Part shown: positions 41,753 through 62,025 of the stretch, in pieces
Layout of the letters: every line of letters starts with the position of its first letter
Numbering within the stretch: the first letter of the stretch is position 1
Origin: Candidatus Ozemibacter sibiricus
Lineage (GTDB): Bacteria > Muiribacteriota > Ozemobacteria > Ozemobacterales > Ozemobacteraceae
Assembly: GCA_003327425.1 (NCBI GenBank)
Contig: QOQW01000002.1
Location: 124,001-188,000, forward strand
Reading direction: 5' to 3'
Length of the DNA: 64,000 bases
Position numbers and translations under genes: made by a program
Notes under the pieces: generated by a model
What the model was told of the DNA's origin: nothing
Database searches by the model: none
What the model saw: the letters and a program-made list of their open reading frames with translations, nothing else

Positions 41753-41820
41753 TCCGGTTGGGGCTTCGTGTCGCCCGGCTTACCATCCGGCGCACCATCC
41801 TATCCGCGAGGGACGAATCC

Positions 41821-43314: not shown

Positions 43315-44758
43315 CTGGACGCACGAGGAGCTGGCTATCGGCACGGGCGGCACCTGGGTCACCGACGCTCGCCCCAGCGCCACCGGGTTTTCCATCGATA
43401 CGCGCACGCTCGCTCCCGGCGACGCCTTCTTCGCCATCCGGGGGGAACGCTTCGACGGGCACGATTTTCTGCCTCAGGCGGTGCAAAAAGGGGCCAGCGT
43501 CCTGATTGGCTCCCGGTTTCCCGCTTCCTTGCTTGCCATGAAACCAACAGTGGAAGAAATCTTGCCCACCCTCGATGGCCGGTCGCCACCTGCCCTGCCA
43601 GAACCCCCAGGATTCCTGCAAGTCGATGACCCGCTGCTGGCCCTCCAGCGCCTGGCCCGCTTCCATCGGGCCCGGCACCCCGGGCTGTTCCTCGGCGTGA
43701 CCGGCAGCAACGGCAAGACCACGACCAAAGAGATGCTGCGCCATCTGTTTTCCAGCGTGGCCGAAACCCGCGCGACCTCGGGCAATCTCAACAACCACAT
43801 CGGCCTGCCGCTCGAACTGGTGCGTCTTCCCCTTTCCACGCGGGTGGCAGTCATCGAAATGGGCATGAACCATGCCGGGGAGATCCGCTTCCTGGCGAGC
43901 TTGGCGCGGCCCACCGCTGCCGTGATCACCAACATCGGACCGGCGCATATCGGCAACCTCGGCTCACTAGAAAACATCGCCCACGCCAAGGCCGAGATCC
44001 TGGAGGAGCTCCCCCCCTCGGGAACCGCCGTCGTCGATGGCGACAGCAAGTTCCTGCCTATATTCCGAGCGGCCACGCGCGCCCGGGTGGCGACCTTCGG
44101 CGTCGGTCCCGATTGCGACCTGCGAGCCTTGGACCTGACCAGCGGCCCAGACGGCAGCCGAATGCGGGTTGCCTGGCATGGCCAAGAGGCAGAAGTGCAC
44201 CTGTCCTTGCTGGGTCGCCATAATGCCCTGAACGCCCTGGCTGCCCTGGCCCTGTTCGTCAGTCAAGGACATGATCTGGCCACCGGCGCCGCCCGCTTGG
44301 CCAGGTTCGCCCCGGTGGGAGCCCGCATGGAATCGCATGTAATCGAGGGGCGTCGAATCATTCTCGATTGTTACAATGCCAACCCCGCGTCGATGGCGCA
44401 GGCGATCGAATTCTTGCGACAATGCCCCGGCCAGCGTCTGGCGGTGCTGGGTGACATGCGGGAACTGGGCGCCGACACGGCGCGGTTCCATACCGAGCTG
44501 GGTGCCCAGGTGGCTCGGGCCGGCATCGATCGTCTGATCGCCGTCGGTCACGATGCGGCCGCGATCGCCGAGGGGGCCCGGCAGGCCGGAATGCCGCACG
44601 AGAGCATCCACCATTGCGAAGATACCATCCAGGCGATACGGCTGTTGCCGAATCTGCTGACGGCGGGTCAGACCGTGCTGCTGAAAGCCAGCCGGGGCAT
44701 GCACTTCGAGACCATCGTCAAGGCCCTGTGGCCGACGCTTCCCGTGGACCTGCATTGA
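43307..44758 (+). CDS. murF: UDP-MurNAc-tripeptide:D-Ala-D-Ala ligase
   Basis: 483 residues. ATP-binding GVTGSNGKTTTKEM, MGMNHAGEI and the Mur-ligase C-terminal domain with DCYNANPASM and GDMRELG, all diagnostic for MurF, which adds D-Ala-D-Ala to complete the cytoplasmic pentapeptide precursor. The ATG at 43307 has GGAGGG upstream and overlaps the murE stop by 8 bases; 14 codons of earlier frame lie inside murE. mraY follows after 66 bases or less. Confidence 0.94.
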   Translation: MLDWTHEELAIGTGGTWVTDARPSATGFSIDTRTLAPGDAFFAIRGERFDGHDFLPQAVQKGASVLIGSRFPASLLAMKPTVEEILPTLDGRSPPALPEPPGFLQVDDPLLALQRLARFHRARHPGLFLGVTGSNGKTTTKEMLRHLFSSVAETRATSGNLNNHIGLPLELVRLPLSTRVAVIEMGMNHAGEIRFLASLARPTAAVITNIGPAHIGNLGSLENIAHAKAEILEELPPSGTAVVDGDSKFLPIFRAATRARVATFGVGPDCDLRALDLTSGPDGSRMRVAWHGQEAEVHLSLLGRHNALNALAALALFVSQGHDLATGAARLARFAPVGARMESHVIEGRRIILDCYNANPASMAQAIEFLRQCPGQRLAVLGDMRELGADTARFHTELGAQVARAGIDRLIAVGHDAAAIAEGARQAGMPHESIHHCEDTIQAIRLLPNLLTAGQTVLLKASRGMHFETIVKALWPTLPVDLH

Positions 44759-44776
44759 CCCTCATTCCGACGACTC

Positions 44777-44782
44777 AGGAGG
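44777..44782 (+). promoter_or_regulatory. Strong ribosome-binding site without a standard start codon at normal spacing
   Basis: AGGAGG followed six bases later by ACG at 44789, which is in frame with mraY. The first GTG in frame is 44825, 42 bases downstream of the site and without a good site of its own. Either translation starts at ACG or another near-cognate codon, or the GTG is used weakly. Confidence 0.5.
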
Positions 44783-44824
44783 CCTTCTACGCTTAGCGCC
44801 ATCATTCCAGCCCTGTCGATCAGG

Positions 44825-45895
44825 GTGTTGCTGTCCGTCCTCACGTCCTTCGTCCTGGCTCTCATCATCGGGCCTCGCGTGATCGCCAACCTGAAGCAGC
44901 GGCAGATCGGCCAGACCATTCGGGAGGAGGGCGTCCAGGAGCACAAGAAGAAAGCCGGCGTGCCCACCATGGGCGGGCTCATCTTCCTCGTGCCCATGGT
45001 CATCACCATTCTGACCTATGCCAGCCTCAATGCCTACGTCGGCCTGGCTCTGCTGTTGGGATTGGGCATGGGCTTGCTGGGCATGATGGATGACCTGACC
45101 AAAGTCATCAAGGCCAGATCGTTGGGCCTGACTCCTCGCCAGAAATTGGCTGGCCAGATCGTGCTCGGCCTGGTCGCCGCACTGGTGCTGCGCTACCTGC
45201 CGGGATTGCGCCAGGAATTGCCCCTGCCCGCCAGCGCCAGCGGCGGCAACCTGCTGCTGCCTCCCAGTTTCATCCAGGTGCCGATCTGGGGAGTTGTCGA
45301 TGTGGGCCTGCTCTACCTGCCCTTCGTCACCTTCGTGGTCGTGGCCTTCACCAACGCCGTCAACCTGACCGACGGTCTGGATGGACTGGCGGCCGGAACG
45401 GTCGGGGTGAGCGTTCTGCCGTTTCTGGTCATCGCCTGGGTGACCGGTCACCTCGTCTTCGCCCGCCATCTCGGGGTGGCCTTTGTGCCAGGGGCAAGCG
45501 AACTGGCCATCGTCTGCGCCTCGTTGTTCGGGGGATGCCTGGGATTCTTATGGTTCAACGCCCATCCCGCCGAGGTGTTCATGGGCGATACGGGCTCGAT
45601 GGCTCTCGGTGGCACGGTGGCGGCTCTGGCCATCGGCACCCGCACCGAGCTTTTCTCGGTGGTCATCGGTGGGCTGTTCGTCATCGAGGCGCTATCAGTG
45701 ATCCTGCAGGTCAGCTATTTCAAATGGACCCACGGGCAGCGAATCTTCCGCATGAGTCCGATCCATCATCATTTCGAGTTGACCGGCTGGCCGGAAGAGA
45801 AGGTGGTGATCCGGTTCTGGATCATCAATCTGATGCTGGCCCTCACGGGGCTCGCCCTGTTCGCCAGCCGGCTCTTCTCGGGGCCCCAGGGCTGA
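44825..45895 (+). CDS. mraY: Phospho-N-acetylmuramoyl-pentapeptide transferase
   Basis: 356 residues from the GTG. Ten or so membrane helices, with the family's KKAGVPTMGGL, the catalytic DD in MMDDLTK, NLTDGLDGLAAG, FMGDTGSMALGG and the SPIHHHFEL loop. MraY moves phospho-MurNAc-pentapeptide onto undecaprenyl phosphate, giving lipid I. The start is uncertain: a perfect AGGAGG at 44777-44782 points to the in-frame ACG at 44789, which would add 12 residues before the first helix. It is the last gene of the cluster; murD, ftsW and murG, which usually follow, are missing. Confidence 0.92.
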   Translation: MLLSVLTSFVLALIIGPRVIANLKQRQIGQTIREEGVQEHKKKAGVPTMGGLIFLVPMVITILTYASLNAYVGLALLLGLGMGLLGMMDDLTKVIKARSLGLTPRQKLAGQIVLGLVAALVLRYLPGLRQELPLPASASGGNLLLPPSFIQVPIWGVVDVGLLYLPFVTFVVVAFTNAVNLTDGLDGLAAGTVGVSVLPFLVIAWVTGHLVFARHLGVAFVPGASELAIVCASLFGGCLGFLWFNAHPAEVFMGDTGSMALGGTVAALAIGTRTELFSVVIGGLFVIEALSVILQVSYFKWTHGQRIFRMSPIHHHFELTGWPEEKVVIRFWIINLMLALTGLALFASRLFSGPQG

Positions 45896-46021: not shown

Positions 46022-47437
46022 TTACCGGTAGTAGATGGTCATCTGGATATTGGACAACTGGAGATCGGCGAGAGAGAGATTCTTGGCAGCCAAGTAGTAG
46101 AAACTGCTGGGGTTGTTGCGGACATAGTCGGTGACATTGACCACGTAGCGGGTCGCCGGAGTGGTGGAATAGTATTCCCCGATGAACTGACCCAGGGTCG
46201 CATTGTTGCCGACCCACCACCCACCGAGGTTCGTGATGATCTGGACCTGCTGCGAGGAACTGAGGAAAGTGTGGAAGCGGCCGATCCCTGGAGCATGGTA
46301 GGCGGCCTCGAACGCCAATTCGACCTTGGTGAACGCCAGACTGACGAAATCGATGGTGACCGGAGTCTCGAGGGCGACTTCCCCATAAAGGCCTTTGGCG
46401 TCAGCTAGAGGATAGCGCTCGGAGAACCATCCCGTGTTGGCAACTGAGCTCTGAATGACCGCGGGGTTCATTTCTGCCTGAACCTCGCTTACTTGACCGA
46501 CCGCCACCTCGACCGTAAAGGATTTATCTAGATAATCGGGATGGGCAAGGGAGAGGGAATAGTTGCCAGGAGGGAGGTCTTTGAAGGAGAAGGTACCGGC
46601 GGCGTCGGTGGTCGCCGACTGGGTGACCGGACCAGTCAAAGCGACCATCACCCCTGAAAGTGGAGTCTTTTTCACGTAGTCCCCGACCGAACCAGAAATG
46701 TCACCAGTGGTAACGGCCGGGGGAGAGGACCGGGGAACCAGGGTAGAGGAAATACGGACGATCGGGATGAGAATGAACTGAGGATCTTTATGTTTACCTC
46801 TCTCTCTAACCAATGTATGCATGAATTTGATGGTCAGTTCAGTGTCATAACCATCTTTGATTTCGAATTTTCCAAGGAATCGAATGCGATTCGAAGGAAT
46901 TTTTACAGGATAAGATTTTCCTGATTCGACCACACGACCGCTTTCAACTCGGAATTCGAGGTAGTTATAAGACCCTGGGGGGAGTTCCAATTCGGCCAAC
47001 AAGAGAGAAAGAGCCTCGGGCGATTTCAGATCGATTTCTTTCGGGGGGAGAGGGACGGGGAAAGGTTTCCCGGAAACTTGCTTGACCTTGGCATCTTTCA
47101 GCACCAAATACAAGTTATCGACGGATTTGCAATGGAACCTCAATCGGAATCGCCCACCGAGGAGACGGCCAAGCCCTTCTTTCGCCTTTAGCCGGCATTG
47201 ATGGGGAGGAGCGGCATAGGAATACTTCCTGGCCGGGACACTAGGCAAGCCTGATTTGGCCATCACTTTAGCCCCGGCCACCTCCGCTGGTACCGCTTCG
47301 GCCAGGAGCACGCTTTCTTCCTGCATAGTAGGATTCACCGCCAGGGGATTGCCCCCGCCACTGGTGAAACAACCAGCGACAAAGGGCAGCACGACCAGAG
47401 TTGCCAACAGGATGGCGCTTCTGCTAGTGTACCTCAT
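46022..47437 (-). CDS. DUF4382-like lipoprotein with carboxypeptidase-regulatory domain
   Basis: 471 residues. A lipoprotein signal with lipobox LPFVAGC (Cys near residue 22) predicts membrane anchoring. Residues ~85-240 resemble DUF4382 (VDNLYLVLKDAKV, PPGSYNYLEFRVES); ~245-330 is a CarboxypepD_reg-like beta-sandwich (GDISGSVGDYV ... GTFSFKDLPPGNYSL); the last ~140 residues are beta-rich and resemble a DNRLRE-type module. No enzyme motif is seen, so it is probably a surface or periplasmic structural/adhesion protein. The ATG at 47437 has GGGAGG upstream; 40 earlier codons were rejected. Its 5' half is lower in G+C than the neighbourhood. Divergent from the giant protein gene. Confidence 0.7.
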   Translation of the reverse strand: MRYTSRSAILLATLVVLPFVAGCFTSGGGNPLAVNPTMQEESVLLAEAVPAEVAGAKVMAKSGLPSVPARKYSYAAPPHQCRLKAKEGLGRLLGGRFRLRFHCKSVDNLYLVLKDAKVKQVSGKPFPVPLPPKEIDLKSPEALSLLLAELELPPGSYNYLEFRVESGRVVESGKSYPVKIPSNRIRFLGKFEIKDGYDTELTIKFMHTLVRERGKHKDPQFILIPIVRISSTLVPRSSPPAVTTGDISGSVGDYVKKTPLSGVMVALTGPVTQSATTDAAGTFSFKDLPPGNYSLSLAHPDYLDKSFTVEVAVGQVSEVQAEMNPAVIQSSVANTGWFSERYPLADAKGLYGEVALETPVTIDFVSLAFTKVELAFEAAYHAPGIGRFHTFLSSSQQVQIITNLGGWWVGNNATLGQFIGEYYSTTPATRYVVNVTDYVRNNPSSFYYLAAKNLSLADLQLSNIQMTIYYR

Positions 47438-48880
47438 GATCTGGCCTCCCCAGGTGGTGAAATGATGGCTTGGCAAGCTGGAAATTGCAAGAACCGTACC
47501 CAGCTGGCGTCGGCGCCTCTGGCCGCTGAAAGCCTTTATTGATGAGGGTTTTTGCACACCCGCACGGTTCTCTGGGCGGCCGCGTAGGGATAATTTCCCT
47601 GCTCCTAATTTCCGTGTTAGGGATTTTTTCCCCGGCTGTTCGGGGAGAGAAGGTGGTTACCTATGCCACCTCCTCCAGTGACCTTCTCGTAGCCTCTTTC
47701 ACCCTGTCCTCCGTCCCCGAATTTCAAGGACGACGGGTGTTCATCGACAAACTGACATTCAACGCTTCAGGGGCATTCTTCACTCTCACTCCCGTTCCCG
47801 CGTCTACGACCCCATACCCACCCTGGATCGAGCGGTACCCTATTGATGCCCCCTGGGCAGCAGCGGTGACCTCGACCACGACGAATCTTAGCCACCTAAC
47901 CCCTATGCAGATGGGCCAGGTTCCCGAAGATTCGGCAATGGTTGCCCTGCGGGGACGCTTTATTATTTCCCGGAATGATTTTTTGACCAATGAAATCTGG
48001 GTCACCATTTTTTCTGATCAATCGAAGCTTTTCGAAGGCCCCTCCGAATATTCATTTAAAGCATCTCCCGGCCCGGTGGGAAACATTCTCCCACATGCTC
48101 TGGTCATCACAAAAACCCGCTGTTATCTTCTCTGGCATGCTCCTGGGCAGCAAATCAAGGGGTGTTTTTTCTCCCACCCTTCAGCGATTACCCAATTTGA
48201 TCTAGGAGTGACCGACGCTTCGGCGTTATATGGAGTAACAGGGATTTCTGCAACAGACGGATGGAATGAATGGGTGGTCGTCGGTTATCCCAAGACAGAC
48301 AATGATCTAGCAATAAGGGCCTTCCCTGCAACCGATTCCATTCTAGCCAACGGCTCTCCGCCAGGAAGAACAGATTCCCCTCTCATTCCTGTCGCGACTT
48401 TGACTTGCAGCAAGGTCGTCATGGTCCAGAATCCTCGCACTCGACAGGTTTTCGTGGGATATACCAATCCCACCAATCAATTTGAAAGCTATGTTGCCAC
48501 CTTTTCACCTACAGGGATCCTCACTCCCACAGAAGGTCCAACATTGATCAGCCTATCTGGCTCTCCCACGCCTTCCAATTCCACCCTTGAACTCGCCGGA
48601 TGTACGAATTTCGAGACGTTCCTGGCCATCAACCGGGGGACAAGCCTAACCGGATTCAGCCGGCGAAGCACTTTCGAATTCGTTCGTACCTTTCCTGGCG
48701 ATACCCCCTATCCGTCTTGCTTCCAATTCAAAACTGCTGGTCGGGATTATCTGGGGCTTCTCATTTTTGAAAACTTCAATCAGATGAGTTTCTTCCATCG
48801 GCCCCTCATCTATCCCTCCGCAGGAGCGTGGAATCCGCAAACCAAGGAAATCTATCTGGAAGGCCCGCCTTGGCCAGGCA
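46750..48880. other. Patch of lower G+C spanning two divergent gene starts
   Basis: Codon third positions and base composition change visibly; for example the 60 bases from 46861 hold 20 G or C, against 36 of 60 from 55561. The patch covers the 5' halves of the lipoprotein gene and of the giant repeat protein and their 104-base shared upstream region. It ends where the Big_5 repeats begin. No convincing promoter was found in the shared region. Confidence 0.6.
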
Positions 48881-51800
48881 CACCCGTCACCGTCGAAGTG
48901 ACCTTCCCTGAGCTGGCCACTGGACAATGCCAGGTTTCCGCCGCCAATGCGGCAGGTGGCATGATCGCCCTGGAGAACGCGGTCGGCGTGATCGCCAGTC
49001 AGAGCCTGGCCACGTTCACCCTGGCCTTCGATATGGACATGCGCCAGGCCTCGTATTCCGAATGGGTCGGGTCTTCCCCTGGCCACTTGATTCGACTGCT
49101 CGGCCCCGGCGACCAGCCGGCGTCCATCACCTACCGCAGCGGAACCGCTCGCACGATTTCGATCGGCTTGCTGGCCGACCTCGCCCTTGAGACGACGTAC
49201 AGATTTTCCATCGCCAGCGGTGTGATCACCCCCTCAGGCACCCAGCTCTGGGGGCCGGCCACCCTCTCTTTCACCACCCAAGCCGGGCAGACAAGCACCC
49301 TCGCCAGCGAAGTCGTGAGCCTGACCACGTTCAGCGATGCCGCACGAACCATCGTCATTCCCGATGGTTCTGAAATCAATGCCACCACGACGCTGTACTT
49401 CCGAATGTCCGCGCTCGATCCCGCACCCAACACGTTCGATGTAGCGACGTTAACGGTGTCTCGCAACGGATCACCCCTGGGAACTCTTCCCCTGGAGCAA
49501 CCCGTCATCGCCACCACCTCATTTTTCGGCACCACAACGACGTCGGTCCCCTGGGGGGGCAATCACACTCTGCGGTTCGAGACTGCCTCTCCGACCGTCG
49601 CCAATACGTTCACCGTGACCTTCCCAGGATTGGTTTCGCACACACCCGAACCCGGCTCGACCGGCGTTCGCCTCGACACACCGATCGTGCTGACCTTCAC
49701 CGAGGCGATGAGCCCTGCCACCATCAACTCAGGCACCATCAGGCTGCATCGCTCCGGCACGCCGGTCTCCTTCGTGGTTTCTTCGATCGTCGGAGCCACC
49801 GTGACGCTGCGACCTGACGATATCGAAACCAACCGACTGCGCCCCGAAACCACCTACACCCTCGAGGTCGGGAAATGGGTCACCGACCTGGTTGGCAATC
49901 CCTTCGTGCATTCGCCGGCCACGTATACGGCGACGTTCACAACGCAGGCCTCGCAGACACCGCCGCTCTCGATCTCGAGCGTGAGTTTGTTCGCCGATGC
50001 CGCCTTCACCCAACCGCTGGCCGCCGAGGCCGATTGGTTCGCCACCGGCACGGTCTACATCCAGATGGTGGGGGCGGATGGCGAACCGCTGACCCGCGAT
50101 TCGACCGTAGCCTCGATCAGCGGCAATACGTTCGTGACGTTGACCGAGATCGCTTCAGCTTCCGGCATTTATCGCGGATCGTACACGTTCGCGGGGTGGC
50201 CCGACCGGGTTCCTCTGCGGGTGCAATCGGTGGTGACCCCGACGGCCAGCCAGGCGCTGCTGATCACCTATCCGCGGTTGAGCCCGCAGGTTCCAGCGTC
50301 GGACAGCACCGATGTTCCCGTCGGCACCACCATCCGGATCCGAGCGGATGAGGAGCTGGCGGCCGGCACGGTGACCGGCACCGCCGCCCGCCTGTTGCTC
50401 GGGGGCACCCCGGTCAGCGCCACCGTCTCGTATGATGGCGGCGCGCGGGAAGTGGTCATCGATCCCACGGCCGATCTGGTCAGCGAGGGTGTGTATACCG
50501 TCCAGGTGGAAGGCGTGCGCGACACGTTCGACAATCCGCTTCTGCAGCCACTGGTCTTCACCTTCCAGGCCGCCGATGTCATCCGCCCGACCTTGGTGGG
50601 ACAGCTTCCGCCGGCGGGCGCGACCGGAGTCACCATCGACCAATGGATCCGGCTGACGTTCTCCGAGCCTATCTTGCCGGCATCAGTGAATGCCAGCCAT
50701 GTGCGGCTGTTGCGCAATGGCAGTCTGGCCTCTTTCATCCTGTCTACTTCCGGGGCCACGGTGACCATCGACCCCGATGATGCCCCCGACGGCGGCCTGC
50801 GCGTGGAAACGACGTATCGAGTCGAGGTCGGCCCCGGCGTCACCGATCTCAAGGGGAATCCCTTCTTCAACACCCCTGCCACCTACGCCACCATCTTCAG
50901 CACCCAAGATGCCCACACGCCTCCGCCAACCATCGATTCGTTCTCTCTCTATCGTGATCCGCTGCGCCTGTCGGGGTATCCGGCCAATGCCGCCATGCCG
51001 GGAACGGCGGCGGTGTATCTGAAAGTCACCGGCACCGACGGCGCCACACAGACCCGAGATGTGACGACCGCCACGTTGCGCCTGTCCTGGAGTGGAACAC
51101 CTATCACCATTCCATTGATGGAAACAGCTTCCAACTCAGGGGGACTCTATCACGGTGAATTCTTCCTCGCTTCGCTTCCGGTGTATGGATTTCCCAGCCC
51201 GGCCCCGCCCGCTCCGGTCGGCACCCTGAGCTGGATTCCCAACATCCAACCCGGGCTGGCCGCCACCTCGACCGTGCGCTTCCCCGCCTGGGTGCCTGCT
51301 GCCAGCCGCCTGGAAACCCTGGCAGGAACGACCCTGGCGAGCGGGGCCAGCGGCGTCCGCCTCGACACCACGATCGACCTCGGCTTCGATTCCGAGATCG
51401 ATATCGACTCGATCACCCCCACCGCCTTGCGTTTGACGACCGGCGGGGCGCCGGTGCCCTATTCCATCACCTGGGACGCGGGAGGAAGCCTGGTGACAGT
51501 GATCCCTGATGACTGGCTCCTGCCCGGCACCACGTATCAGATGGAAGGCCCGTATGCCGCCTCTGGACTGCGCAATCCTCAAGGGAACCCACTGGCGCAG
51601 CCCTTCGCCTTCACCTTCCAGACCCAGGCCTCGCAAACTCCGCCCGTGAGCATCCAGCGCGTCACCTTGTACAGCAACAGCGGATTCACGCCCGCCAGCC
51701 GTCTGGCAACTGGGGCCGATTATCCTGCAACCGGAACGGTCTACATCGAGATGGCCGGGGTCGATGGCTCGCCACTCACCGTCGATCGCACCATCGCCTC

Positions 51801-54800
51801 GCTGTCGACCGGCGTGCAAGTACCGCTGACGGAAACCGGGGCAGCGACCGGCCTGTTTCGGGGCAGCAGCTCGTTTGCGGGGTTGCCCGATCGCTTCGCC
51901 CTGACGGTGCAATCGCTGGTGTCCCCGACCGCCAGCCAGAGCCTGTTCGTGACCTATCCTCGACTGACGCCCCTCATTCCCGCTTCGGGTGCTTCGGCGG
52001 TCTCGGTGTTCACGACCGTGGTCATCGAAGCCGATGAGCCGCTTGATCCCGATTCCGTGTCGACCGCTGGAATCAGGATTCTGGCGGGGGGAAGTCCGGT
52101 GGCGGCCGGCTTGTCCTATGAGGCTGCGACCAGGCGCTTGATCCTGACGCCTGCCGCGGCGCTTCCCTATGCCACGACCCTGGTGGTGGTGGCCAGCGGA
52201 GTTCGCGACCTGGTCGGCAACCCCCAGGCCACGCGGTTGGCCTTCCAATTCACGACCCAGGCCACGTCGTTGCCCCCCACCACCATCACGGCGCTGCGGG
52301 TGGCCACTTCCCCGACCTATCTGCCCGCCCTGGCGCCCGACACGGCCGTCGGGCCCGGTCAGCCCCTCTACATCGAGGTCGAGGGGACCGACCGCTCGGC
52401 GACCACCGTCGATTATACCGATGTCGAGCTGCTTTCCGATCTGCGGCCAGATGTCGCCACGGCCACCCTCATCGAAGTCGGCGGCAACAGCGGGGTGTTT
52501 CGCGGCTCGCTGAACGCTTTTCCGGAAGAAGGGGCGAGACTGACCATCCGTTCGGTCACCGATCCGACCTATCGCCTCGACCTGCGAACGCTGGCCAGAC
52601 CGAGATTCGCAGTGCTCGATCCGGCCTCGGGGTCGAGCGATCTGCCGCTCGACACTTTGTTCACCATCACCACCACCAAGCCGGTCGATCCGGCCACCGC
52701 CCTGGGAGCGACCCTCTCCCTGGTCGACCAGACCGGCGAGGTAGTAGCGAGCGCCACCTGGGTGACACCGACCCGGTTGGTGGTGGAAGGAGCGCTGGCC
52801 ACCGCCAGCCCCGTCCACCTGGGTATCAGCGGATGGCGAGACACCGATGGGTTGGCGTTCCCCGATCTGCGGGCCGATTTCACGACGCGAGCCGCGTCGT
52901 TCTCCCGCCTGGAAGTATTCAGCGACGCCGCCTGGAGCGCGCCAGTCGCCTCGGGCAGCACGATCGAACCGGGGGTCACGCTGTGGGTCAGACTGACCGG
53001 CCGCGATCTGCGCACCCGTCAGATCGAAACCACCACGGTGCAAGTGCGTACCGGGCCGGCCAGCGCCCTCTCTTTCCCCCTTACCGAAACGGCGGGCGGC
53101 CGCTTCGAGGGCACCGTGACCGCGCCTACCCAAGCCGCCGTGGCGTTCGCCATCGTGCCGGTGGCGGCTCCCAGCCTGGCGCAGACCTTCCGAACGATGG
53201 AAGAGTTCGCCGTCACCTCGGTCACGCCAGCCAGCGGAGCGACCGGCGTGCCGGCCGACACCTGGCCGACCTGGACCTTCTCGCATCCGCTGACCCCGGC
53301 GTGGGATCCAACAGCCCCCGGAGGATGGTTCCAACTGACCAAGACCTTCTCGCCAGGCGGGTTGCCGCTGGGCGTTCCCGTGGAAGCCACCTACACCATC
53401 TCGCTCGATCGCCGGCAGGTCGAACTCCGGCCGTGGGCGATCATGGAACTGCTGGCCGAGTACGAGCTTCGGGTATCGGGAACCGTGCGAGACGAGCGCG
53501 ATCGTCTCCTGGGCACCCCCTTCATCACCCGATTCAGAGTGCAATCCCCGCCTCCGCCCCCACAAGAAGTCAGCGCCCTGCGCCATTATCGCGACGGCAC
53601 CTTCACCCGCACGACCGACCGGGTCGCGCCAGACGGAACCCTCTTCCTCGAAGTGGTCGCGCGAGATCAGTCGTTCTCGACCGTCGATACGACCCGCGTG
53701 CGCATCACCTCGTCCGACGGCAGCCTGCCGGGCAACGAATTTACCCTGGTTGAAACCAGCGCCAATTCAGGAATCTACCGCGGGGCCCTGCCGGTCCGGC
53801 TGCCGCTCGGCACGACGATTTCCATCCAGTCGCAAGGCCGGCCGATCTTCCTGATCACGGTGACGGTCGAGGCGCGGCCCCGGTTGATCGACATCACGCC
53901 GGCCTCGGGCGCCGCGGATCTGTACCTGGATCAAAGCATCGCTCTGACCTTCGACCAAGACATGGACCCGACGACCCTCGCCAGCGGCGTGCTGGTCACC
54001 GATGCCGCAGGTCTGCTCCTGCCGGTCACGCGCGCCCTCGGCCCCACCAATCGCGTCATCCGGGTGGCTCCGACGACCGCCTGGCCGATGGTAGCCCCGT
54101 TGCGGGTCGCCTTGACCGCCGACCTGTTCGGGGCGACCGGCATCGCCCCGGTTTCCACCGCCATCGGGTTCTCGACGCGGGCCCCGACGGCGGCCACGGT
54201 GGAAGCCCTCTCAGGCCTGCCCCCCCGATCGAATCAGGCGGTCAGCAGGTTGGGGGAAGCTCTGCCAGGGCCGCTCACCGTGGTCGCCACCACGACCGAT
54301 CTGTACCAGACGATTCCCGAAACGCGCCGGATCGAGCTGCACGTCGACGGCACCCTGACCACGCTCGATCTGGCTGAGGTGGCTACCCAGCCGGGCACCT
54401 TCCAGGGCACCGCGGTGCTGCCCGACACCCGTGGAGCCGCCGCCAGTCTGACCCTCGACTTCGCCGCCCGACCGGGGTTTCCCTTCACGATCGCCGCGCT
54501 GCCAGGTCTGCGCGGGGTGACGCCGGCCTCAGGCGCAACCGGCGTCGGGGAACTGCCGATCATCGAAGCCAGCTTCACCCGGCCGATTCCCCTGGAAGTG
54601 GCGGCTGGGGCGCTCGAACTCAGCGTGCGCGGCCAGGCGGCGCCGGTCAGATTGCTGACCAGCGGCGGCACGACCGCCACGCGCTTGCAATGGGAGCCCA
54701 CCAGTTCATTGCCTCCAGGGTCGGTGGTGCGCGCAACCTTCCGAGGGCTCGTCGATCAGCTGGGGCAACCGGTGACCGTGCCCGATACCATGTTCACCAT

Positions 54801-55803
54801 CGTGGGGTCGGATGGCATCGTGATCTACGAGGATCCCGAGTTCCAACGACCGATTCTCGGTGCCGTGGTGACCGTGCCCACGATCTTCGTCGAGGCCACC
54901 GCCTCGGGGCCCTGGACCAGCCCTGCCCATCCGGTGCTGACCGTGACCACGCAGCTGGCCGCCACGGCACCCCGGCGCCTGGCCCTGGAAGGGGCGGCTC
55001 GACCGACCCGGCGCTTCCAGTGCCAGATCGATCTCGAGGCCAGTCGACGGCCGCCCATCCATCTGGTGCCACTGGCCCCGGGCGAGCGCGCCGAATTGTC
55101 CAGTCCATTCCTGACTCCGCATCGTCGGGTGTTCCACTACAAGGTGCGGGGCGACACGCCACCCGCCACCATCCAGGGCCTGGCGCTGTTCAGAGATGGG
55201 CATTACCAGCAACGAATCGAGGGCGATCTCCATCAGGCGCAGGTATTCGTGCAGATCGCCGCGGAAGACCTGAACTGGGTGTTTCCTGATACCACCGTCA
55301 TACGCGCGACCAGCGAGGCCGACCCTTCTGGTCTCGAGCTGGTGCTGCGCGAATCGGGCATCCACACGGGGCTGTTCCGGAACGGGTTCACGCTGGGCGC
55401 CATGACCATCGCGACGGGCAGCCCGGTGCTTCGAGCGCGCCCCGGCGATGTCATCACCCTGACGTCGATCACCGATCCGCGGGTGGCCGTGCGTGTGCGC
55501 TACCTTCCCGAGACACGTCTGGAACACGCCATCGCCTGGCCCAGTCCAGCCCGCGGAGACACGGTGACGTTCAGCTTCTACCTGACCTTCCCGGCCGATG
55601 TCGAGCTGTCGGTCTACGACACGGCCGGCGACGAGGTGCACTTCGCCGTGATCCGGGGACGGGCCGGCGAGAACCGCTACGCCTGGCGGCTGCCGCGGCG
55701 AGTGGCCAACGGGGTCTATTTCTTCGAACTCCGGCCGACCCCGCACACCGAGTATCAGACGAAACAGAAGAAGGTCCGGGGCCGGTTTGCGGTTTTGCGC
55801 TGA
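47542..55803 (+). CDS. Giant secreted repeat protein with alternating Big_5 and ETxxNSGxYRG modules
   Basis: 2,753 residues. A signal peptide (~15-35) precedes a ~430-residue beta-rich region encoded by lower-G+C DNA. From about residue 470 roughly ten Big_5/SbsA Ig-like domains occur (starts near 473, 698, 913, 1017, 1257, 1475, 1688, 1889, 2114, 2324; typical PASGATGV opening). Most are followed by a second ~90-residue module carrying TVYIxMxGxDG, a T-x-D pair and an ETxxNSGxYRG-like ending. The C-terminus (WPSPARGDTVTFSFYL, VANGVYFFELR) is a FlgD-type Ig/sorting-like domain. It should be an extended cell-surface or S-layer-like fibre. The ATG at 47542 follows a TTG; no good ribosome-binding site is visible. 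Confidence 0.75.
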   Translation: MRVFAHPHGSLGGRVGIISLLLISVLGIFSPAVRGEKVVTYATSSSDLLVASFTLSSVPEFQGRRVFIDKLTFNASGAFFTLTPVPASTTPYPPWIERYPIDAPWAAAVTSTTTNLSHLTPMQMGQVPEDSAMVALRGRFIISRNDFLTNEIWVTIFSDQSKLFEGPSEYSFKASPGPVGNILPHALVITKTRCYLLWHAPGQQIKGCFFSHPSAITQFDLGVTDASALYGVTGISATDGWNEWVVVGYPKTDNDLAIRAFPATDSILANGSPPGRTDSPLIPVATLTCSKVVMVQNPRTRQVFVGYTNPTNQFESYVATFSPTGILTPTEGPTLISLSGSPTPSNSTLELAGCTNFETFLAINRGTSLTGFSRRSTFEFVRTFPGDTPYPSCFQFKTAGRDYLGLLIFENFNQMSFFHRPLIYPSAGAWNPQTKEIYLEGPPWPGTPVTVEVTFPELATGQCQVSAANAAGGMIALENAVGVIASQSLATFTLAFDMDMRQASYSEWVGSSPGHLIRLLGPGDQPASITYRSGTARTISIGLLADLALETTYRFSIASGVITPSGTQLWGPATLSFTTQAGQTSTLASEVVSLTTFSDAARTIVIPDGSEINATTTLYFRMSALDPAPNTFDVATLTVSRNGSPLGTLPLEQPVIATTSFFGTTTTSVPWGGNHTLRFETASPTVANTFTVTFPGLVSHTPEPGSTGVRLDTPIVLTFTEAMSPATINSGTIRLHRSGTPVSFVVSSIVGATVTLRPDDIETNRLRPETTYTLEVGKWVTDLVGNPFVHSPATYTATFTTQASQTPPLSISSVSLFADAAFTQPLAAEADWFATGTVYIQMVGADGEPLTRDSTVASISGNTFVTLTEIASASGIYRGSYTFAGWPDRVPLRVQSVVTPTASQALLITYPRLSPQVPASDSTDVPVGTTIRIRADEELAAGTVTGTAARLLLGGTPVSATVSYDGGAREVVIDPTADLVSEGVYTVQVEGVRDTFDNPLLQPLVFTFQAADVIRPTLVGQLPPAGATGVTIDQWIRLTFSEPILPASVNASHVRLLRNGSLASFILSTSGATVTIDPDDAPDGGLRVETTYRVEVGPGVTDLKGNPFFNTPATYATIFSTQDAHTPPPTIDSFSLYRDPLRLSGYPANAAMPGTAAVYLKVTGTDGATQTRDVTTATLRLSWSGTPITIPLMETASNSGGLYHGEFFLASLPVYGFPSPAPPAPVGTLSWIPNIQPGLAATSTVRFPAWVPAASRLETLAGTTLASGASGVRLDTTIDLGFDSEIDIDSITPTALRLTTGGAPVPYSITWDAGGSLVTVIPDDWLLPGTTYQMEGPYAASGLRNPQGNPLAQPFAFTFQTQASQTPPVSIQRVTLYSNSGFTPASRLATGADYPATGTVYIEMAGVDGSPLTVDRTIASLSTGVQVPLTETGAATGLFRGSSSFAGLPDRFALTVQSLVSPTASQSLFVTYPRLTPLIPASGASAVSVFTTVVIEADEPLDPDSVSTAGIRILAGGSPVAAGLSYEAATRRLILTPAAALPYATTLVVVASGVRDLVGNPQATRLAFQFTTQATSLPPTTITALRVATSPTYLPALAPDTAVGPGQPLYIEVEGTDRSATTVDYTDVELLSDLRPDVATATLIEVGGNSGVFRGSLNAFPEEGARLTIRSVTDPTYRLDLRTLARPRFAVLDPASGSSDLPLDTLFTITTTKPVDPATALGATLSLVDQTGEVVASATWVTPTRLVVEGALATASPVHLGISGWRDTDGLAFPDLRADFTTRAASFSRLEVFSDAAWSAPVASGSTIEPGVTLWVRLTGRDLRTRQIETTTVQVRTGPASALSFPLTETAGGRFEGTVTAPTQAAVAFAIVPVAAPSLAQTFRTMEEFAVTSVTPASGATGVPADTWPTWTFSHPLTPAWDPTAPGGWFQLTKTFSPGGLPLGVPVEATYTISLDRRQVELRPWAIMELLAEYELRVSGTVRDERDRLLGTPFITRFRVQSPPPPPQEVSALRHYRDGTFTRTTDRVAPDGTLFLEVVARDQSFSTVDTTRVRITSSDGSLPGNEFTLVETSANSGIYRGALPVRLPLGTTISIQSQGRPIFLITVTVEARPRLIDITPASGAADLYLDQSIALTFDQDMDPTTLASGVLVTDAAGLLLPVTRALGPTNRVIRVAPTTAWPMVAPLRVALTADLFGATGIAPVSTAIGFSTRAPTAATVEALSGLPPRSNQAVSRLGEALPGPLTVVATTTDLYQTIPETRRIELHVDGTLTTLDLAEVATQPGTFQGTAVLPDTRGAAASLTLDFAARPGFPFTIAALPGLRGVTPASGATGVGELPIIEASFTRPIPLEVAAGALELSVRGQAAPVRLLTSGGTTATRLQWEPTSSLPPGSVVRATFRGLVDQLGQPVTVPDTMFTIVGSDGIVIYEDPEFQRPILGAVVTVPTIFVEATASGPWTSPAHPVLTVTTQLAATAPRRLALEGAARPTRRFQCQIDLEASRRPPIHLVPLAPGERAELSSPFLTPHRRVFHYKVRGDTPPATIQGLALFRDGHYQQRIEGDLHQAQVFVQIAAEDLNWVFPDTTVIRATSEADPSGLELVLRESGIHTGLFRNGFTLGAMTIATGSPVLRARPGDVITLTSITDPRVAVRVRYLPETRLEHAIAWPSPARGDTVTFSFYLTFPADVELSVYDTAGDEVHFAVIRGRAGENRYAWRLPRRVANGVYFFELRPTPHTEYQTKQKKVRGRFAVLR

Positions 55804-56314: not shown

Positions 56315-56445
56315 GCGTGCCGCCACAGGCCGACTCGCCCGATCTGGTCCGCTGACGGGGTCACCCGTCACCCAACCGCGACCTGGCATACCGGGTGGGG
56401 CCGATCTTCGTGGGGCCGGTCTTCCCGACCAAGCCACCCGTTCGG

Positions 56446-56916
56446 TCACTTGATTTTGTCGATGAAACAACTGCCGGTCTCATCGGGCTGCAGGTAGCCC
56501 TTGAGGAGGCTGGCCCCTCGACGGATCTTCTTGATCTCCTCGCTGAGCTGCGCGCGAGCCTGGTCGAGCACGGCGGCCACGTCGCGATCGGTCGCCACCA
56601 CGGCCGCCACAGCCTGGCGCCACTCCTCGACCAGCCGGGGGCCTTCGGGGAGTTCCCGGGCGAGGAGGGCGGCGAGGGCGGACAGCCCGGCCGTGGCTTC
56701 CCCGGGAAGAACTTCGGCGAGCGTGACCGCCAGGTCGTTTTCGAGATCGCGGGCCAGGGCGAACGTGACCTCCCGTTGATCGAGGAGCGGCGCCAGGCGG
56801 TCGGCGGTCGGCGGACCGGCGAGGAATTCCTGATGGGCGGCCGCCAGATCGCGGTGTGTGCTGATCAGCCGTTCGAGGGCCTGGACCAGGAAGGCCTGGA
56901 CATCGGGGGCGATCAC
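56446..56916 (-). CDS. Helical protein of unknown function, possibly FlgN/FliT-like
   Basis: 156 residues starting at a GTG that overlaps the kinase stop (GTGA). Almost entirely helical with heptad leucines; the ending KKIRRGASLLKGYLQPDETGSCFIDKIK (here quoted only in its first and last parts: SLLKGYLQ and FIDKIK) resembles the C-terminal pattern of FlgN/FliT-type flagellar chaperones. No flagellar gene is in the window, so this likeness may be fold-level only. Position as the last gene of the PP2C-TPR-kinase operon suggests a partner or target of that signalling unit. Confidence 0.55.
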   Translation of the reverse strand: MIAPDVQAFLVQALERLISTHRDLAAAHQEFLAGPPTADRLAPLLDQREVTFALARDLENDLAVTLAEVLPGEATAGLSALAALLARELPEGPRLVEEWRQAVAAVVATDRDVAAVLDQARAQLSEEIKKIRRGASLLKGYLQPDETGSCFIDKIK

Positions 56917-58634
56917 GGTCGCGTTCCGGGAGAGCCGCCGGGAGGCCGGCCGGGGCCTCCCGGGGGTGGCTTGTCAGGAGACGGTGGGGCAGCCGCCGGA
57001 GCCGGCGGCTTGACGAACCGCTCGAACAGGTTCTGCGAAAAGAGGATGGTCTCGCGATGCTGGGCGAAAATGGCCTGGCCGTTGCGATCGACGCCGGTGA
57101 AGGTCTCGACGATGGCCACGCCGGTGCGGCCGATCTTGTGGATGGCCACAATGAACTCGAAAGGCCAGAAGAAGCCCTTGAACCCTTGCGGGGCGTGGGG
57201 CATCTTCTGATCGCCGACCATGACGAAGATAGGGAAATCTTTTTCCTCGTAGGAATTCAGGAACCAGTTCGATTGGTCCCAGGTGAGGAAGTTGTCTTTC
57301 TGATTGATCGAGTAGGTGCGTTTGGCCCGCTCGGTGAAATTGATCGAACCAACGACGATATCGGAACCATCGGTGTGAGCCAGCTTCTGTTCGATGATAT
57401 TGATCTGAAGAGGAATGCCGCGCTTTTCGAAGGCGATGGTCTCGAGCTTGAAGATCGAGTTGAAACGATCGATGACCAGAGGCTGGCTCTTGAACCCGAT
57501 GGCCATCTTCAATTGCTGCTGGAGGCGGTCGTACTCCTGCTGCAAGGTATGGCACAGGGCTTTGAGCTGCTCGATCTGATCAGGATCGGTGCGGACCTTC
57601 AGACTGGCCTGCCGGAGCCGGTCCTTGGCTTCCAGGAATTCGGCCCGGGCCCGCTTGACCATGGCCTGCTCATCGGCGAGAGTGCGTTTCTTGAAGGCTT
57701 TGCGCAGCCCTGAGACCCCGCCCACCTCGCGGATCTCTTCGCTGATGCCGCTCATGGTCAACCCCTGGCGACCCTGGCGAACGACGGTGAGCAGCTTGTC
57801 GAGTTCGCCCTGGACCATCTGGGCGGTGGGATAGCGGGCGGCGGGATCCTTGGCCAGCAGCTTCAAGACGATCTGTTCGAGTTTCTGGGGAATCTCGGGG
57901 ACCAGTTGCCGCGGCGGCGGGAACTGCCATTTGGTCTGCGCCAGGAAGATATCCATGGCCCGCTTCCCTTCGAAGGGAAGGCGGCCGGTCAGCTTCTCGT
58001 ACATGACGACCCCGAACGAGAACAGGTCGGACAACGCATCGACCGGTTTGTTGGTCAACTGTTCGGGGCTGGCATAGACCACGGTGAACAGGTTCTCGCC
58101 GGTGGCGGTGAGGTCGTCATCGTCGCGGACGTATTTGGCGATGCCGAAATCGATCAGGCAAGGCGAATAATCGCTGCCCTTGAGGATGATGTTCTGCGGT
58201 TTGATGTCGCGATGGACGAGGCCGGATTTGTGGATGTAGCTGAGGGCGTCGAAGCACCGGATGAAGATGCTCAGGTATTCCTCGATGGAAGGAATGGACT
58301 GCTTGACCCCGAGCGTGGTGACCGAATGGCTGCGCGGAAAGGCATCCATCGACAGCCCTTTGACATACTCCATGGCGAGGTAGTGGTATTCCCCGTCCTG
58401 GCCGGCATCGACGAATTTCACGATGTGGGGGTGGTTGAGCGATTTGAGGATCTTCCCCTCGAGGATGAACCGCTCGAGAACGGCGGGAATGGCGGCACAT
58501 TCGGGAGACAGGATCTTGATGGCGACCATCCGCTCCGTCTTCACCTCGTACCCGATGTAGACGTAGCCCATGCCCCCGCATCCGATCAGATCCAGGAGGG
58601 TGTATTTCTTGAGAACCGGCGGGGTGTATGGCAC
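56913..58634 (-). CDS. Serine/threonine protein kinase (Hanks type)
   Basis: 573 residues. Kinase domain ~10-285: Gly loop GCGGMGYVY, Lys40 in VAIK, Glu60 in the C-helix, catalytic HRD 141-143 with HRDIKPQN, DFG 162-164 and SPEQL in place of APE. A coiled-coil segment (~330-385) leads to a ~150-residue beta-rich C-terminal domain and a Pro/Gly tail. There is no membrane helix, unlike PknB-type kinases, so it is cytosolic. The start is a GTG. It follows a TPR gene by 38 bases and is co-transcribed with a PP2C phosphatase, the usual antagonist. Confidence 0.9.
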   Translation of the reverse strand: MPYTPPVLKKYTLLDLIGCGGMGYVYIGYEVKTERMVAIKILSPECAAIPAVLERFILEGKILKSLNHPHIVKFVDAGQDGEYHYLAMEYVKGLSMDAFPRSHSVTTLGVKQSIPSIEEYLSIFIRCFDALSYIHKSGLVHRDIKPQNIILKGSDYSPCLIDFGIAKYVRDDDDLTATGENLFTVVYASPEQLTNKPVDALSDLFSFGVVMYEKLTGRLPFEGKRAMDIFLAQTKWQFPPPRQLVPEIPQKLEQIVLKLLAKDPAARYPTAQMVQGELDKLLTVVRQGRQGLTMSGISEEIREVGGVSGLRKAFKKRTLADEQAMVKRARAEFLEAKDRLRQASLKVRTDPDQIEQLKALCHTLQQEYDRLQQQLKMAIGFKSQPLVIDRFNSIFKLETIAFEKRGIPLQINIIEQKLAHTDGSDIVVGSINFTERAKRTYSINQKDNFLTWDQSNWFLNSYEEKDFPIFVMVGDQKMPHAPQGFKGFFWPFEFIVAIHKIGRTGVAIVETFTGVDRNGQAIFAQHRETILFSQNLFERFVKPPAPAAAPPSPDKPPPGGPGRPPGGSPGTRP

Positions 58635-58672
58635 GGTGGTCAGATCCTGGTCAGCAGGCGTTTTTCACAAGG

Positions 58673-59224
58673 TCATTTCTTGTTCGAAACGATGTAATCG
58701 ATGCGCTCCTGGGCGTTCTTGGCAATCTTGGAGTTGGGTTTGAGCCGGATGACTTCGCTCCATTCCTTCTTGGCCTCTTCGAACATGCCCTTCTTGAAGT
58801 AGCTGTTGCCCAGATAGTAGTGCTGGTTCTCATTGGTCGGCTTGATGGACAAGGCTTTTTTGTAGGTCTCGATGGCCTTGTCGATCTCATTGTTGCTGTA
58901 ATACATGAACGCCAGCCAATCGAGAAGGTCGACATTGTTGGGATCGGAGACCAGCAGCTTCTCGACCTCGGCGATGCCCTCGCCCGTGCCGGCGGTGTAT
59001 TGGGTGAGCAGCTCCTGCTCCTCCTTCTTCATCTGGTTCTGGAGATCGGAGCCGGACAGCACCGATTTGAACCGTTTGGCCGTGACGGTCTCTTTCTTTT
59101 CAGTGCTCTCTTCGGCTGGGGGCGTTTCCAACGTCGGCCCCTTGTCCTTGGAGACGACCAGGACCACGACGATCGCCACCAGAACCACCACACCACCAAT
59201 GATCAAGATCGTTACCATATCCAT
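58673..59224 (-). CDS. Membrane-anchored TPR protein
   Basis: 183 residues. One N-terminal membrane helix (~5-24), a charged linker and two to three TPR units (~85-175: NVDLLDWLAFMYYSNNEIDKA, NQHYYLGNSYFKKGMFEEA). It probably serves as a membrane adaptor for the kinase and phosphatase encoded on either side. The ATG has AGGAGG 7 bases upstream. It lies 36 bases after the phosphatase gene and 38 before the kinase gene. Confidence 0.8.
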   Translation of the reverse strand: MDMVTILIIGGVVVLVAIVVVLVVSKDKGPTLETPPAEESTEKKETVTAKRFKSVLSGSDLQNQMKKEEQELLTQYTAGTGEGIAEVEKLLVSDPNNVDLLDWLAFMYYSNNEIDKAIETYKKALSIKPTNENQHYYLGNSYFKKGMFEEAKKEWSEVIRLKPNSKIAKNAQERIDYIVSNKK

Positions 59225-59260
59225 CGCGCAACCTCCTGGATCGCATTTTGCCGGAAAGGA

Positions 59261-60082
59261 TCAGGATGCACCCGCGCATCCCCAGTATGTGAACCATTGT
59301 TTCAACCGCTGGAAGGAAAAACGCCCCGGAACAGTGACCGGAATCTCATCGAAGAGCACCGCGATGACGGTGGAATTGTCGGTCCCTCCGGCCTGATTGG
59401 CCTCTCCGACGATGGCCCGCCCGACCTTCCGAAAGGCCGGCTGAGCCAGGGCTTCCGCCAACCGCTGGTCGGAGACCATCCCGGTCACCCCATCGGTGCA
59501 GAGCAAGATGACATCCCCCTGCTGCAGGTCGAGCAGGTGGGTGTCGATGGTGATGAACTCCCGGACGCCCATGGCCCGGCTGAGAATGTGACGGGCCGGA
59601 TGGGTGTGGGCCTCTTCCGGCTTCAGCCGGCCCGCGCGCACCTGTTCCGCCACCAGGGTATGGTCATGGGTGACCTGGGTGAAAACCCCGCGTCGGAGCA
59701 GGTAGGCACGGGAATCGCCGACGTGACCGATCAGCGCCTGGGCCCCTTTGACCAGCATCGCGGTCAGGGTCGTTCCCATTCCCGACAGTTCGGGATGCGC
59801 TTTGGCATAAGCGAAGACGGCGACACTGGCTTCCCCGAAGGCGGCTTCAAACAACTCGCCGGCCAAGGGTTCGCCGCGATAATTGCCGAGCCACCGCTTC
59901 AAAGTATTGATGGCCAAGGCCGAGGCGATCTCCCCGCCGGCGTGCCCTCCCATGCCATCGGCGACCGCGAAGAGGGCGACGCCCGCCGATAGCGCCGGTT
60001 CGCACCACGGAGGAATGGCCAGATAGCTGTCCTCGTTCAGGGTGCGGACTCGCCCGACATCGGTACAGATCGAAAGTTCCAA
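59261..60082 (-). CDS. PP2C-family protein phosphatase
   Basis: 273 residues. All PPM metal-site motifs are present: NEDSY, ADGMGGHAGGE (D42), HVGDSRAYLLR, CTDGVTGM and GTDNSTVI. It should remove phosphate from Ser/Thr residues, opposing the kinase two genes downstream. A TTG at 60148 would lengthen the frame, but that triplet is part of the TTGACC -35 box; the transcription start must lie after 60120. The TTG at 60082, with AGGA before it and followed by ELSICTDVG as in the family, is therefore the start. Confidence 0.88.
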   Translation of the reverse strand: MELSICTDVGRVRTLNEDSYLAIPPWCEPALSAGVALFAVADGMGGHAGGEIASALAINTLKRWLGNYRGEPLAGELFEAAFGEASVAVFAYAKAHPELSGMGTTLTAMLVKGAQALIGHVGDSRAYLLRRGVFTQVTHDHTLVAEQVRAGRLKPEEAHTHPARHILSRAMGVREFITIDTHLLDLQQGDVILLCTDGVTGMVSDQRLAEALAQPAFRKVGRAIVGEANQAGGTDNSTVIAVLFDEIPVTVPGRFSFQRLKQWFTYWGCAGAS

Positions 60083-60119
60083 GGGATTCCTGTCGTGTGA
60101 GGTCTTGGTACAGAGGTGG

Positions 60120-60148
60120 ATTATAGCCTTCAGAAAAGTTCCGGTCAA
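60120..60148 (-). promoter_or_regulatory. Strong promoter of the PP2C-TPR-kinase operon
   Basis: Reverse strand: TTGACC, 17-base spacer, perfect TATAAT. One of the two best sigma70 matches in the window. About 38 bases before the chosen TTG start. Confidence 0.8.
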
Positions 60149-60163
60149 GGAACGCCGCGGAGG

Positions 60164-60190
60164 AAAAAGGGCGGCTCCACGCCTCGCCGC
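60164..60190 (-). terminator. Probable terminator of the DHH-GIDE operon
   Basis: Reverse strand: GCGGC, ten-base loop, GCCGC, CC, then TTTTT. Short stem but a good T-run, placed between the GIDE gene's end and the next promoter. Confidence 0.5.
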
Positions 60191-60223
60191 GGGCGACCCA
60201 AGCCAACGAAAGGGCAGGCACGA

Positions 60224-61042
60224 TCAGCGAAAACCCAGCAGGAAGATGAGCAGTCCCAGGAGACAGGCGCCACCGCCGGCAATCAGCCAGAATCGCGCCG
60301 CCTTCTGGGCGGCCCCGACGAGATCTTCCAGGGAACGCTCGGTGATGAGGAAGAGACTGCCGGCGCTCGGCGATTTCGCGAGCATGCGCTTTCCCTCGCG
60401 CTCTTGCAGGGAGCCGATGACGCCGATGGTCGCTCCGAGCGGCAACCAGCTCTCCCATTGCTGGGTGCCCAGCACCCGCCGTTCGGGAGGCGGGGGCTTC
60501 CGGTCGGGGGAGCTGGCAGGTTCGCCGGGCGTCCCCACCGACGCGGCGAAGGAGCGAGCCTGGTCAGGGGGAGGAGGCCGGGGAGGAAGCTCGGCAGGCA
60601 GGAACCGATCGACGGCCGTTTTCCCTTCGATCTCGGCGCCATGGGGATCGACGAAGAGGCGGTGCTCCTGGTCGACGAGCCAGAACGGCACACGGTCGGT
60701 CCGTTCTTCGAGCAGGCGATGGACGATGCGCACCTGCCGCTCGAGCTGGCCGGTGCGTCGATTCTCCTCCCAGGTCGTCTCTTCGACCCGTTCGCGGACC
60801 GAACTGGCGAAAAAGGCGCAGGGCTGTCGGCTGAGGGCGGCCGTGACAGGGGCATCGCAAGCGATGGTGCCGCGGACTTCCACCAGGGTGTCGGGCGGGG
60901 GTGGGGTGTCGGCGATCTCGCGCAGCGAGAGTTGGCGGACCGACAGGAAGCGTTCCCCGACCGCCCGCTGCACGGCGGAAAAATACAGCAGGAGCATGCC
61001 GAGCAGGAAGAGCATCCCGCCGAGGAGCAGGTACCATCCCAT
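60224..61042 (-). CDS. GIDE-domain (MULAN-like) double-membrane-helix protein
   Basis: 272 residues. Membrane helices at both ends (~2-24 and ~245-268) flank a soluble domain with GTIACDAPVTAALSRQPCAF, an aromatic/charged stretch (VEETTWEE) and FWLVDQEHRLFVDPHGAEIE, the pattern of the GIDE (BAM/MULAN) domain. In eukaryotes this domain sits between two helices in the mitochondrial E3 ligase MUL1; bacterial forms have no RING finger, and none is seen here. Function in bacteria is unknown. It follows the DHH phosphoesterase gene by 21 bases and is probably co-transcribed. Confidence 0.75.
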   Translation of the reverse strand: MGWYLLLGGMLFLLGMLLLYFSAVQRAVGERFLSVRQLSLREIADTPPPPDTLVEVRGTIACDAPVTAALSRQPCAFFASSVRERVEETTWEENRRTGQLERQVRIVHRLLEERTDRVPFWLVDQEHRLFVDPHGAEIEGKTAVDRFLPAELPPRPPPPDQARSFAASVGTPGEPASSPDRKPPPPERRVLGTQQWESWLPLGATIGVIGSLQEREGKRMLAKSPSAGSLFLITERSLEDLVGAAQKAARFWLIAGGGACLLGLLIFLLGFR

Positions 61043-61063
61043 GGTCAGGCGGTGGGAGCGGAC

Positions 61064-62002: not shown

Positions 62003-62025
62003 GGGCACACCTCACAGAGAGATTT

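Follow-up and report, generated by a model that had tools for sequence, protein, structure and literature searches.

RESULTS

A giant protein of alternating Big_5 and M domains

A single gene of Candidatus Ozemibacter sibiricus encodes a giant protein built of Big_5 domains that take turns with another module, here called M, for which Pfam has no model. Taken as a whole, the evidence is best explained if the giant is a secreted structural protein of the cell surface, a rod or a coat, and we consider that reading probable. The window, the whole stretch of DNA that was analyzed, comprises 64,000 nucleotides of contig QOQW01000002.1. Within it, the gene is an uninterrupted open reading frame of 2754 codons on the plus strand (47539-55803) that opens with TTG at 47539, and the ATG at 47542 is the likelier start (Table 1).

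Ten Big_5 stretches were found in the open reading frame by Pfam (E 1.3e-101), and the segments between them had no family. Self-BLASTP of the entire protein returned the trivial match alone and missed the repeats, and for that reason domain HMMs were used. The M HMM was built from the clearest inter-Big_5 segments, and each copy was scored with itself left out and compared with 200 shuffles of its own. M1 to M8 and M10 scored 20.8 to 92.6 bits, and the best shuffle reached no more than 9.2 bits. M9 scored 3.7 bits versus 2.7 for its best shuffle and is unsupported from the window protein alone, but one relative has, in the correct position, a module whose best match is M9. As judged by these scores, the giant carries nine well-supported M copies and one, M9, that is degenerate or lost.

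The domain order is B1-M1-B2-M2-B3-B4-M3-B5-M4-B6-M5-B7-M6-B8-M7-B9-M8-B10-M9-M10, and thus the alternation is regular with two exceptions, B3-B4 and M9-M10. The original prediction, made from the letters of the window, had called for about ten alternating two-domain units. The number held for Big_5 and, counting the degenerate M9, for M, whereas strict alternation did not. The five motifs predicted to end near 50180, 51160, 51880, 52510 and 53780 were all located, and a sixth, ESGIHTGLFRNG, lies in M10. The predicted module length of about 90 residues was too short, as M spans about 105 to 125.

Table 1. Features of the giant gene and its neighbors in the window
Feature	Position	Strand	Evidence
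Predicted lipoprotein gene, divergent; lipobox LPFVAGC, DUF4382 and CarboxypepD_reg	46022..47437	-	Pfam, lipobox, co-occurrence
Giant protein, 2753 aa from ATG: signal peptide, head, ~20 Ig-like domains, C-terminal sorting-like domain	47542..55803	+	Single ORF; orthologs in matching gene order
Predicted signal peptide, hydrophobic core LLLISVLGIF	47542..47646	+	Hydropathy; alignment of ortholog heads
N-terminal head, ~440 aa	47647..48963	+	~25% identity among most orthologs; no Pfam or PDB match
Big_5 B1, divergent	48967..49302	+	Pfam; ortholog comparison
M1	49291..49620	+	34.0 bits, leave-one-out HMM
Big_5 B2, best Pfam stretch	49621..49944	+	Pfam
M2, EIASASGIYRG at 50146-50178	49942..50265	+	92.6 bits, leave-one-out HMM
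Big_5 B3	50260..50586	+	Pfam
Big_5 B4, immediately 3' of B3; CopC-like match at residues 1018-1087	50581..50916	+	Pfam
M3, ETASNSGGLYHG at 51121-51156	50902..51279	+	50.4 bits, leave-one-out HMM
Big_5 B5	51304..51636	+	Pfam
M4, ETGAATGLFRG at 51832-51864	51622..51954	+	82.4 bits, leave-one-out HMM
Big_5 B6	51949..52269	+	Pfam; part of B6-M5-B7 model
M5, EVGGNSGVFRG at 52474-52506	52255..52593	+	55.8 bits, leave-one-out; part of B6-M5-B7 model
Big_5 B7	52591..52887	+	Pfam; part of B6-M5-B7 model
M6, short motif loop ETAGGRFEG	52882..53199	+	34.1 bits, leave-one-out HMM
Big_5 B8	53197..53547	+	Pfam
M7, ETSANSGIYRG at 53752-53784	53542..53871	+	57.6 bits, leave-one-out; AlphaFold2 model
Big_5 B9	53869..54192	+	Pfam
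M8, looser copy	54184..54504	+	20.8 bits vs shuffles <=5.5; positional orthologs
Big_5 B10	54493..54798	+	Pfam
M9, putatively degenerate or lost copy	54790..55128	+	3.7 bits; one positional match in relative
M10, ESGIHTGLFRNG at 55351-55386	55144..55506	+	37.0 bits, leave-one-out HMM
C-terminal FlgD_ig / Por_Secre_tail-like domain, terminal GRFAVLR before stop	55471..55800	+	Profile matches, orthologs
Ser/Thr protein kinase gene, convergent, conserved neighbor	56913..58634	-	Pfam; ortholog loci

The giant is poor in lysine (0.7%), rich in threonine (12.9%) and acidic (pI 5.1). In its predicted signal peptide, S19, L20 and I28 (S-L-x7-I) are invariant in 12 orthologs in the head alignment, and an approximate motif, FSLxxxxxLGIFxP, is shared by the window protein and orthologs L040 and L042 to L052. 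Signal peptides are seldom so well conserved, and the heads are otherwise only about 25% identical.

M is a separate domain with a predicted Ig-like fold

That the inter-Big_5 segment is a module of its own, with no Pfam name, was borne out. We rejected the possibility that M is a Big_5 domain or half of one: hhalign gave a probability of 1.3%, Big_5 copies scored no more than 0.3 bits under the M model, and Big_5 models (PF13205) matched none of the M members. When 79 M copies were compared with Pfam, no family matched more than two members, at E values no better than 0.0019, and thus no named family was found. Weak one-member matches to RNase_II_C_S1 and STIV_turret_2nd were taken as chance. 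A literature search for the M motif string returned nothing relevant.

Structure prediction, which had been proposed as a check, gave an AlphaFold2 model of M7 as a seven-stranded beta-sandwich (pLDDT 92.3, pTM 0.82), and B6-M5-B7 was modeled as three consecutive domains (pLDDT 92.5). An all-beta sandwich of about seven strands, as predicted, places M in the Ig-like beta-sandwich superfamily. Strands 65-73 and 80-86 of the M7 model are joined by a hairpin that carries the ET..NSG.YRG motif, and the loop joining strands 35-42 and 52-59 carries D44..T49.D51. Conservation over the 79 copies was high at D44 (77/79), E73 (71/79) and D51 (66/79). That the loop and the hairpin form a metal site is only a guess.

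Foldseek with M alone retrieved Ig, filamin and carbohydrate-binding sandwiches, all at E > 0.001. With the B6-M5-B7 tandem, the S-layer protein SbsC ranked first (E 1.7e-8), although TM-scores were low, about 0.3. The best matches of the tandem were mostly chains of Ig-like domains, with Bacillus anthracis Sap and filamin rod domains near the top.

M resembles domains of an archaeal S-layer protein

The M profile matched several stretches of NmSLP, the S-layer protein of Nitrosopumilus maritimus, at E 5.3e-6 when built from 9 rows, the copies of the window giant, and at E 2.7e-10 when built from 79. NmSLP was the one solved protein of note found by the profile, and the matched stretches contain ETG..TGxF hairpins. 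A control profile, built from the Big_5 copies of the giant, matched L,D-transpeptidases, TssM and SbsC in the PDB but not NmSLP. The significant profile match indicates that M and the Ig-like domains of NmSLP belong to the same domain family, and the resemblance to S-layer motifs proposed in the original prediction is thereby supported. NF052345, the model of an anammox S-layer protein, gave weak matches to 14 of the 79 M copies, at E 1.3e-4 for the best.

The C terminus resembles a sorting domain

The last ~95 residues of the window giant match FlgD_ig only (E 0.004), and in 8 of 10 orthologs the same domain matches Por_Secre_tail (PF18962; best E 5.2e-6). As in T9SS substrates, the sorting-like domain is the last part of the chain. 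The domain ends six proteins in the window genome, including five further large ones, and its matches in those five reach the stop codon or come within 4 residues of it. The five (981 to 4245 codons; contigs C23, C45 and C54; L075 to L079) terminate in L/I-A-V-L/M-R. Matches to the domain were present in all 23 family genomes searched. We think it probable, on the strength of the shared domain and its common ending, that this C terminus is a genome-wide sorting signal.

The SprA model found a partial match of 38 bits in the window genome (curated cutoff, 200) at G000:C14:76273-76659. The PorU model reached at most 70 bits (curated cutoff, 420), and its best matches spanned only its C-terminal region. 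A further stretch, G000:C55:149451-150347, is a subthreshold partial match to the peptidase part of the T9SS sortase PorU. This stretch and the SprA match might belong to a diverged exporter of T9SS-like type. An outer membrane is likely because Omp85 is present in the window genome.

Orthologs of the giant and the spread of M

Orthologs of the giant were found in Candidatus Ozemobacteraceae / Riflebacteria. The Big_5/M array occurs in 17 of 24 Ozemobacteraceae genomes, almost always within one gene, and since the other 7 lack the giant gene, members of the family can do without it. In 14 orthologs, the modules match the window copies in the order M1, (M2), M3 to M8, M10, although individual lineages have lost or multiplied some of them. 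One ortholog of 4418 residues (L042 in G003) has eight copies of an M3-type Big_5-plus-M unit, 76 to 95% identical and spaced about 240 residues apart, and another relative repeats a B-B-M unit. The eightfold array has the appearance of a recent tandem expansion, whereas the copies within the window giant are old and diverged. Because relatives repeat such units, the Big_5-M pair is a unit of duplication, and the two-domain unit of the original prediction is real in the evolutionary sense. Three entries titled Methylomirabilis, Neomarinimicrobiota and Erysipelotrichia (L063, L067 and L072) also contain loci that match the giant gene of the Ozemobacteraceae, and two of them, L063 and L072, have its conserved neighbors as well; the titles are probably mislabeled.

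Outside the phylum, M was matched at E <=1e-5 in 32 of ~342 sampled genomes, about 9% of the bacterial genomes sampled. In the proteins examined, its neighbors were right-handed beta-helix, GH8, PKD, Big_9, cadherin-like, and FlgD_ig or Por_Secre_tail domains. Two giant proteins from distant genomes consist of about 25 M (L115; 3-10145, minus strand) and about 18 M (L117; 2-6709, minus strand), with neither Big_5 nor any Pfam match.

The giant gene lies beside a lipoprotein gene

A predicted lipoprotein gene is divergent from the giant gene, and a pattern search recovered lipobox-type cysteine motifs in seven of its orthologs, LPFVAGC being that of the window copy. Among the family genomes, 15 of the 16 that carry the giant gene also have the lipoprotein, matched at full or near full length, whereas the 7 that lack the giant gene have no such match (Fisher p 3.3e-5, in a test that ignores shared ancestry). 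In the sole giant-positive genome lacking a match, the contig begins within the giant gene. The lipoprotein is perhaps a partner or anchor of the giant.

The order murE-murF-mraY-lipoprotein-giant-kinase recurs in most relatives with contigs that span the locus. Upstream of the lipoprotein and giant genes in the window lies a dcw cluster, rsmH-ftsI-murE-murF-mraY (38184-45895, plus strand), and in both the window genome and relatives these two genes, not murD or ftsW, come after mraY. Upstream of the dcw cluster is an 899-codon open reading frame with a clostripain-family (C11) peptidase domain (34822-37521, plus strand). Three plus-strand open reading frames downstream of the giant gene (56395-57210, 58628-59992 and 60116-62179) had no family and are probably spurious, and the first overlaps the kinase gene.

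DISCUSSION

The giant is most likely a long rod or coat protein of the cell surface. Its N-terminal signal peptide would export it across the inner membrane, and its C-terminal Por_Secre_tail/FlgD_ig-like domain would bring it to the outer surface and probably hold it there, perhaps with the assistance of the adjacent lipoprotein. About twenty beta-sandwich domains stacked head to tail would make a semirigid rod of very roughly 70 nm, if each Ig-like domain is taken to span ~3.5 nm. Big_5 and M would be two sequence-unrelated Ig-like beads that form one repeating pair, and the conserved D..T.D loop and ET..(N)SG.(Y/F)RG hairpin may stabilize the M sandwich, possibly by enclosing a metal ion. 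Such a rod might carry the variable N-terminal head outward from the cell, or rods might pack laterally into a coat. The rod-like surface fiber of the original prediction is consistent with the predicted chain of domains.

A more specific possibility is that the giant is an S-layer protein whose monomers pack laterally into a two-dimensional lattice, as in N. maritimus. Such a role could account for the homology of M to the NmSLP domains, the weak matches to the anammox model, the rank of SbsC in the tandem search, the concentration of M matches in one gene per family genome, and the acidic, lysine-poor composition. M, however, is also found in right-handed beta-helix proteins, a GH8 protein, and PKD and cadherin-like arrays. 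Because it spans so many genomes and surface architectures, we regard M as a general extracellular module rather than an S-layer marker, and an S-layer role cannot be read from the M motif when many non-S-layer surface proteins carry it. Moreover, a Pfam scan of the full giant found neither SLH nor another S-layer anchor domain, though SLH is not universal among S-layer proteins, and the gene is missing from part of the family. We therefore consider an S-layer unlikely.

The giant might instead be an adhesin. The ~440-residue head would then bind to a substrate, a polymer or a second cell, and the repeats would serve only as its passive stalk. Identity between most orthologs falls to ~25% in the head and is 32 to 81% in the C-terminal region, a pattern expected for a binding tip. 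Moreover, the copy number of stalk units is altered in two relatives, and the MpAFP ice adhesin is a precedent for a long Ig-like stalk (PMC4083281). A Pfam scan and a PDB search with the head, however, found no match and thus no recognizable ligand-binding domain, and each repeat is conserved by position, beyond the needs of a passive spacer. An adhesin is about as unlikely as an S-layer. Finally, the gene lies near mraY, where the dcw cluster ends, in an order conserved in many relatives, and Ig domains from L,D-transpeptidases are among the PDB relatives of Big_5, as might be expected if the giant acted directly in cell wall synthesis or division. Such a role is very improbable, as the giant has no catalytic domain among the families scanned, an opposite-strand gene stands between it and the dcw genes, and seven family genomes dispense with it. 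A structural rod or coat remains our preferred reading.

Three things are new: a widespread M family, absent from Pfam; the regular way in which a conserved giant pairs it with Big_5; and the linked lipoprotein. The fold class of M is ordinary. About one tenth of the bacterial genomes sampled contain M, as does an archaeal S-layer of solved structure, yet because Pfam has no model for it, proteins built wholly of M appear featureless to annotation. With an M profile, a class of surface proteins could be annotated and given a structural template. For a phylum known mainly from metagenomes, the conserved locus of giant and lipoprotein offers a concrete candidate for what makes up the cell surface, and a literature search for Riflebacteria surface proteins found none. 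We speculate, with considerable doubt, that M is an Ig-like family that builds the coats of both bacteria and archaea and that the Ozemobacteraceae giant and its lipoprotein form a surface-coat system, exported by a T9SS-like route and encoded beside the dcw genes.

Several known systems share parts of this design. NmSLP (Nmar_1547; PDB 8c8k) has 1734 residues, ten Ig-like domains and a proven capacity to form a lattice (PMC11153153), and our best M-profile match, at residues 1529-1582, falls inside the ninth Ig-like domain in the numbering of that study. Like the giant, NmSLP is a tandem Ig-like array with very little lysine; unlike the giant, it is archaeal, neither a T9SS-type tail nor Big_5 alternation has been reported for it, and the lattice is proven for NmSLP alone. 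Kustd1514, the S-layer glycoprotein of Kuenenia stuttgartiensis (NF052345; PMC5088730), resembles the giant through a weak match of some M copies, marginal and limited to M, and the full-length giant does not match the model. Big_5 itself (PF13205) accounts for the other half of the unit, in ten copies, and M has no detectable sequence or profile similarity to it. Among T9SS sorting domains (PF18962 Por_Secre_tail, PF13585 CHU_C and PF13860 FlgD_ig), PF18962 matches the tails of the orthologs, and the C-terminal position is alike, but the window tail reaches only the level of FlgD_ig and the SprA and PorU matches of its genome fall below cutoff. Region II of MpAFP, like the giant, lengthens a Gram-negative surface protein by tandem Ig-like domains, in that case one identical, Ca-dependent repeat present ~120 times (PMC4083281). 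Where the MpAFP repeats are identical, the giant instead has two alternating domain types, each copy of which is individually conserved.
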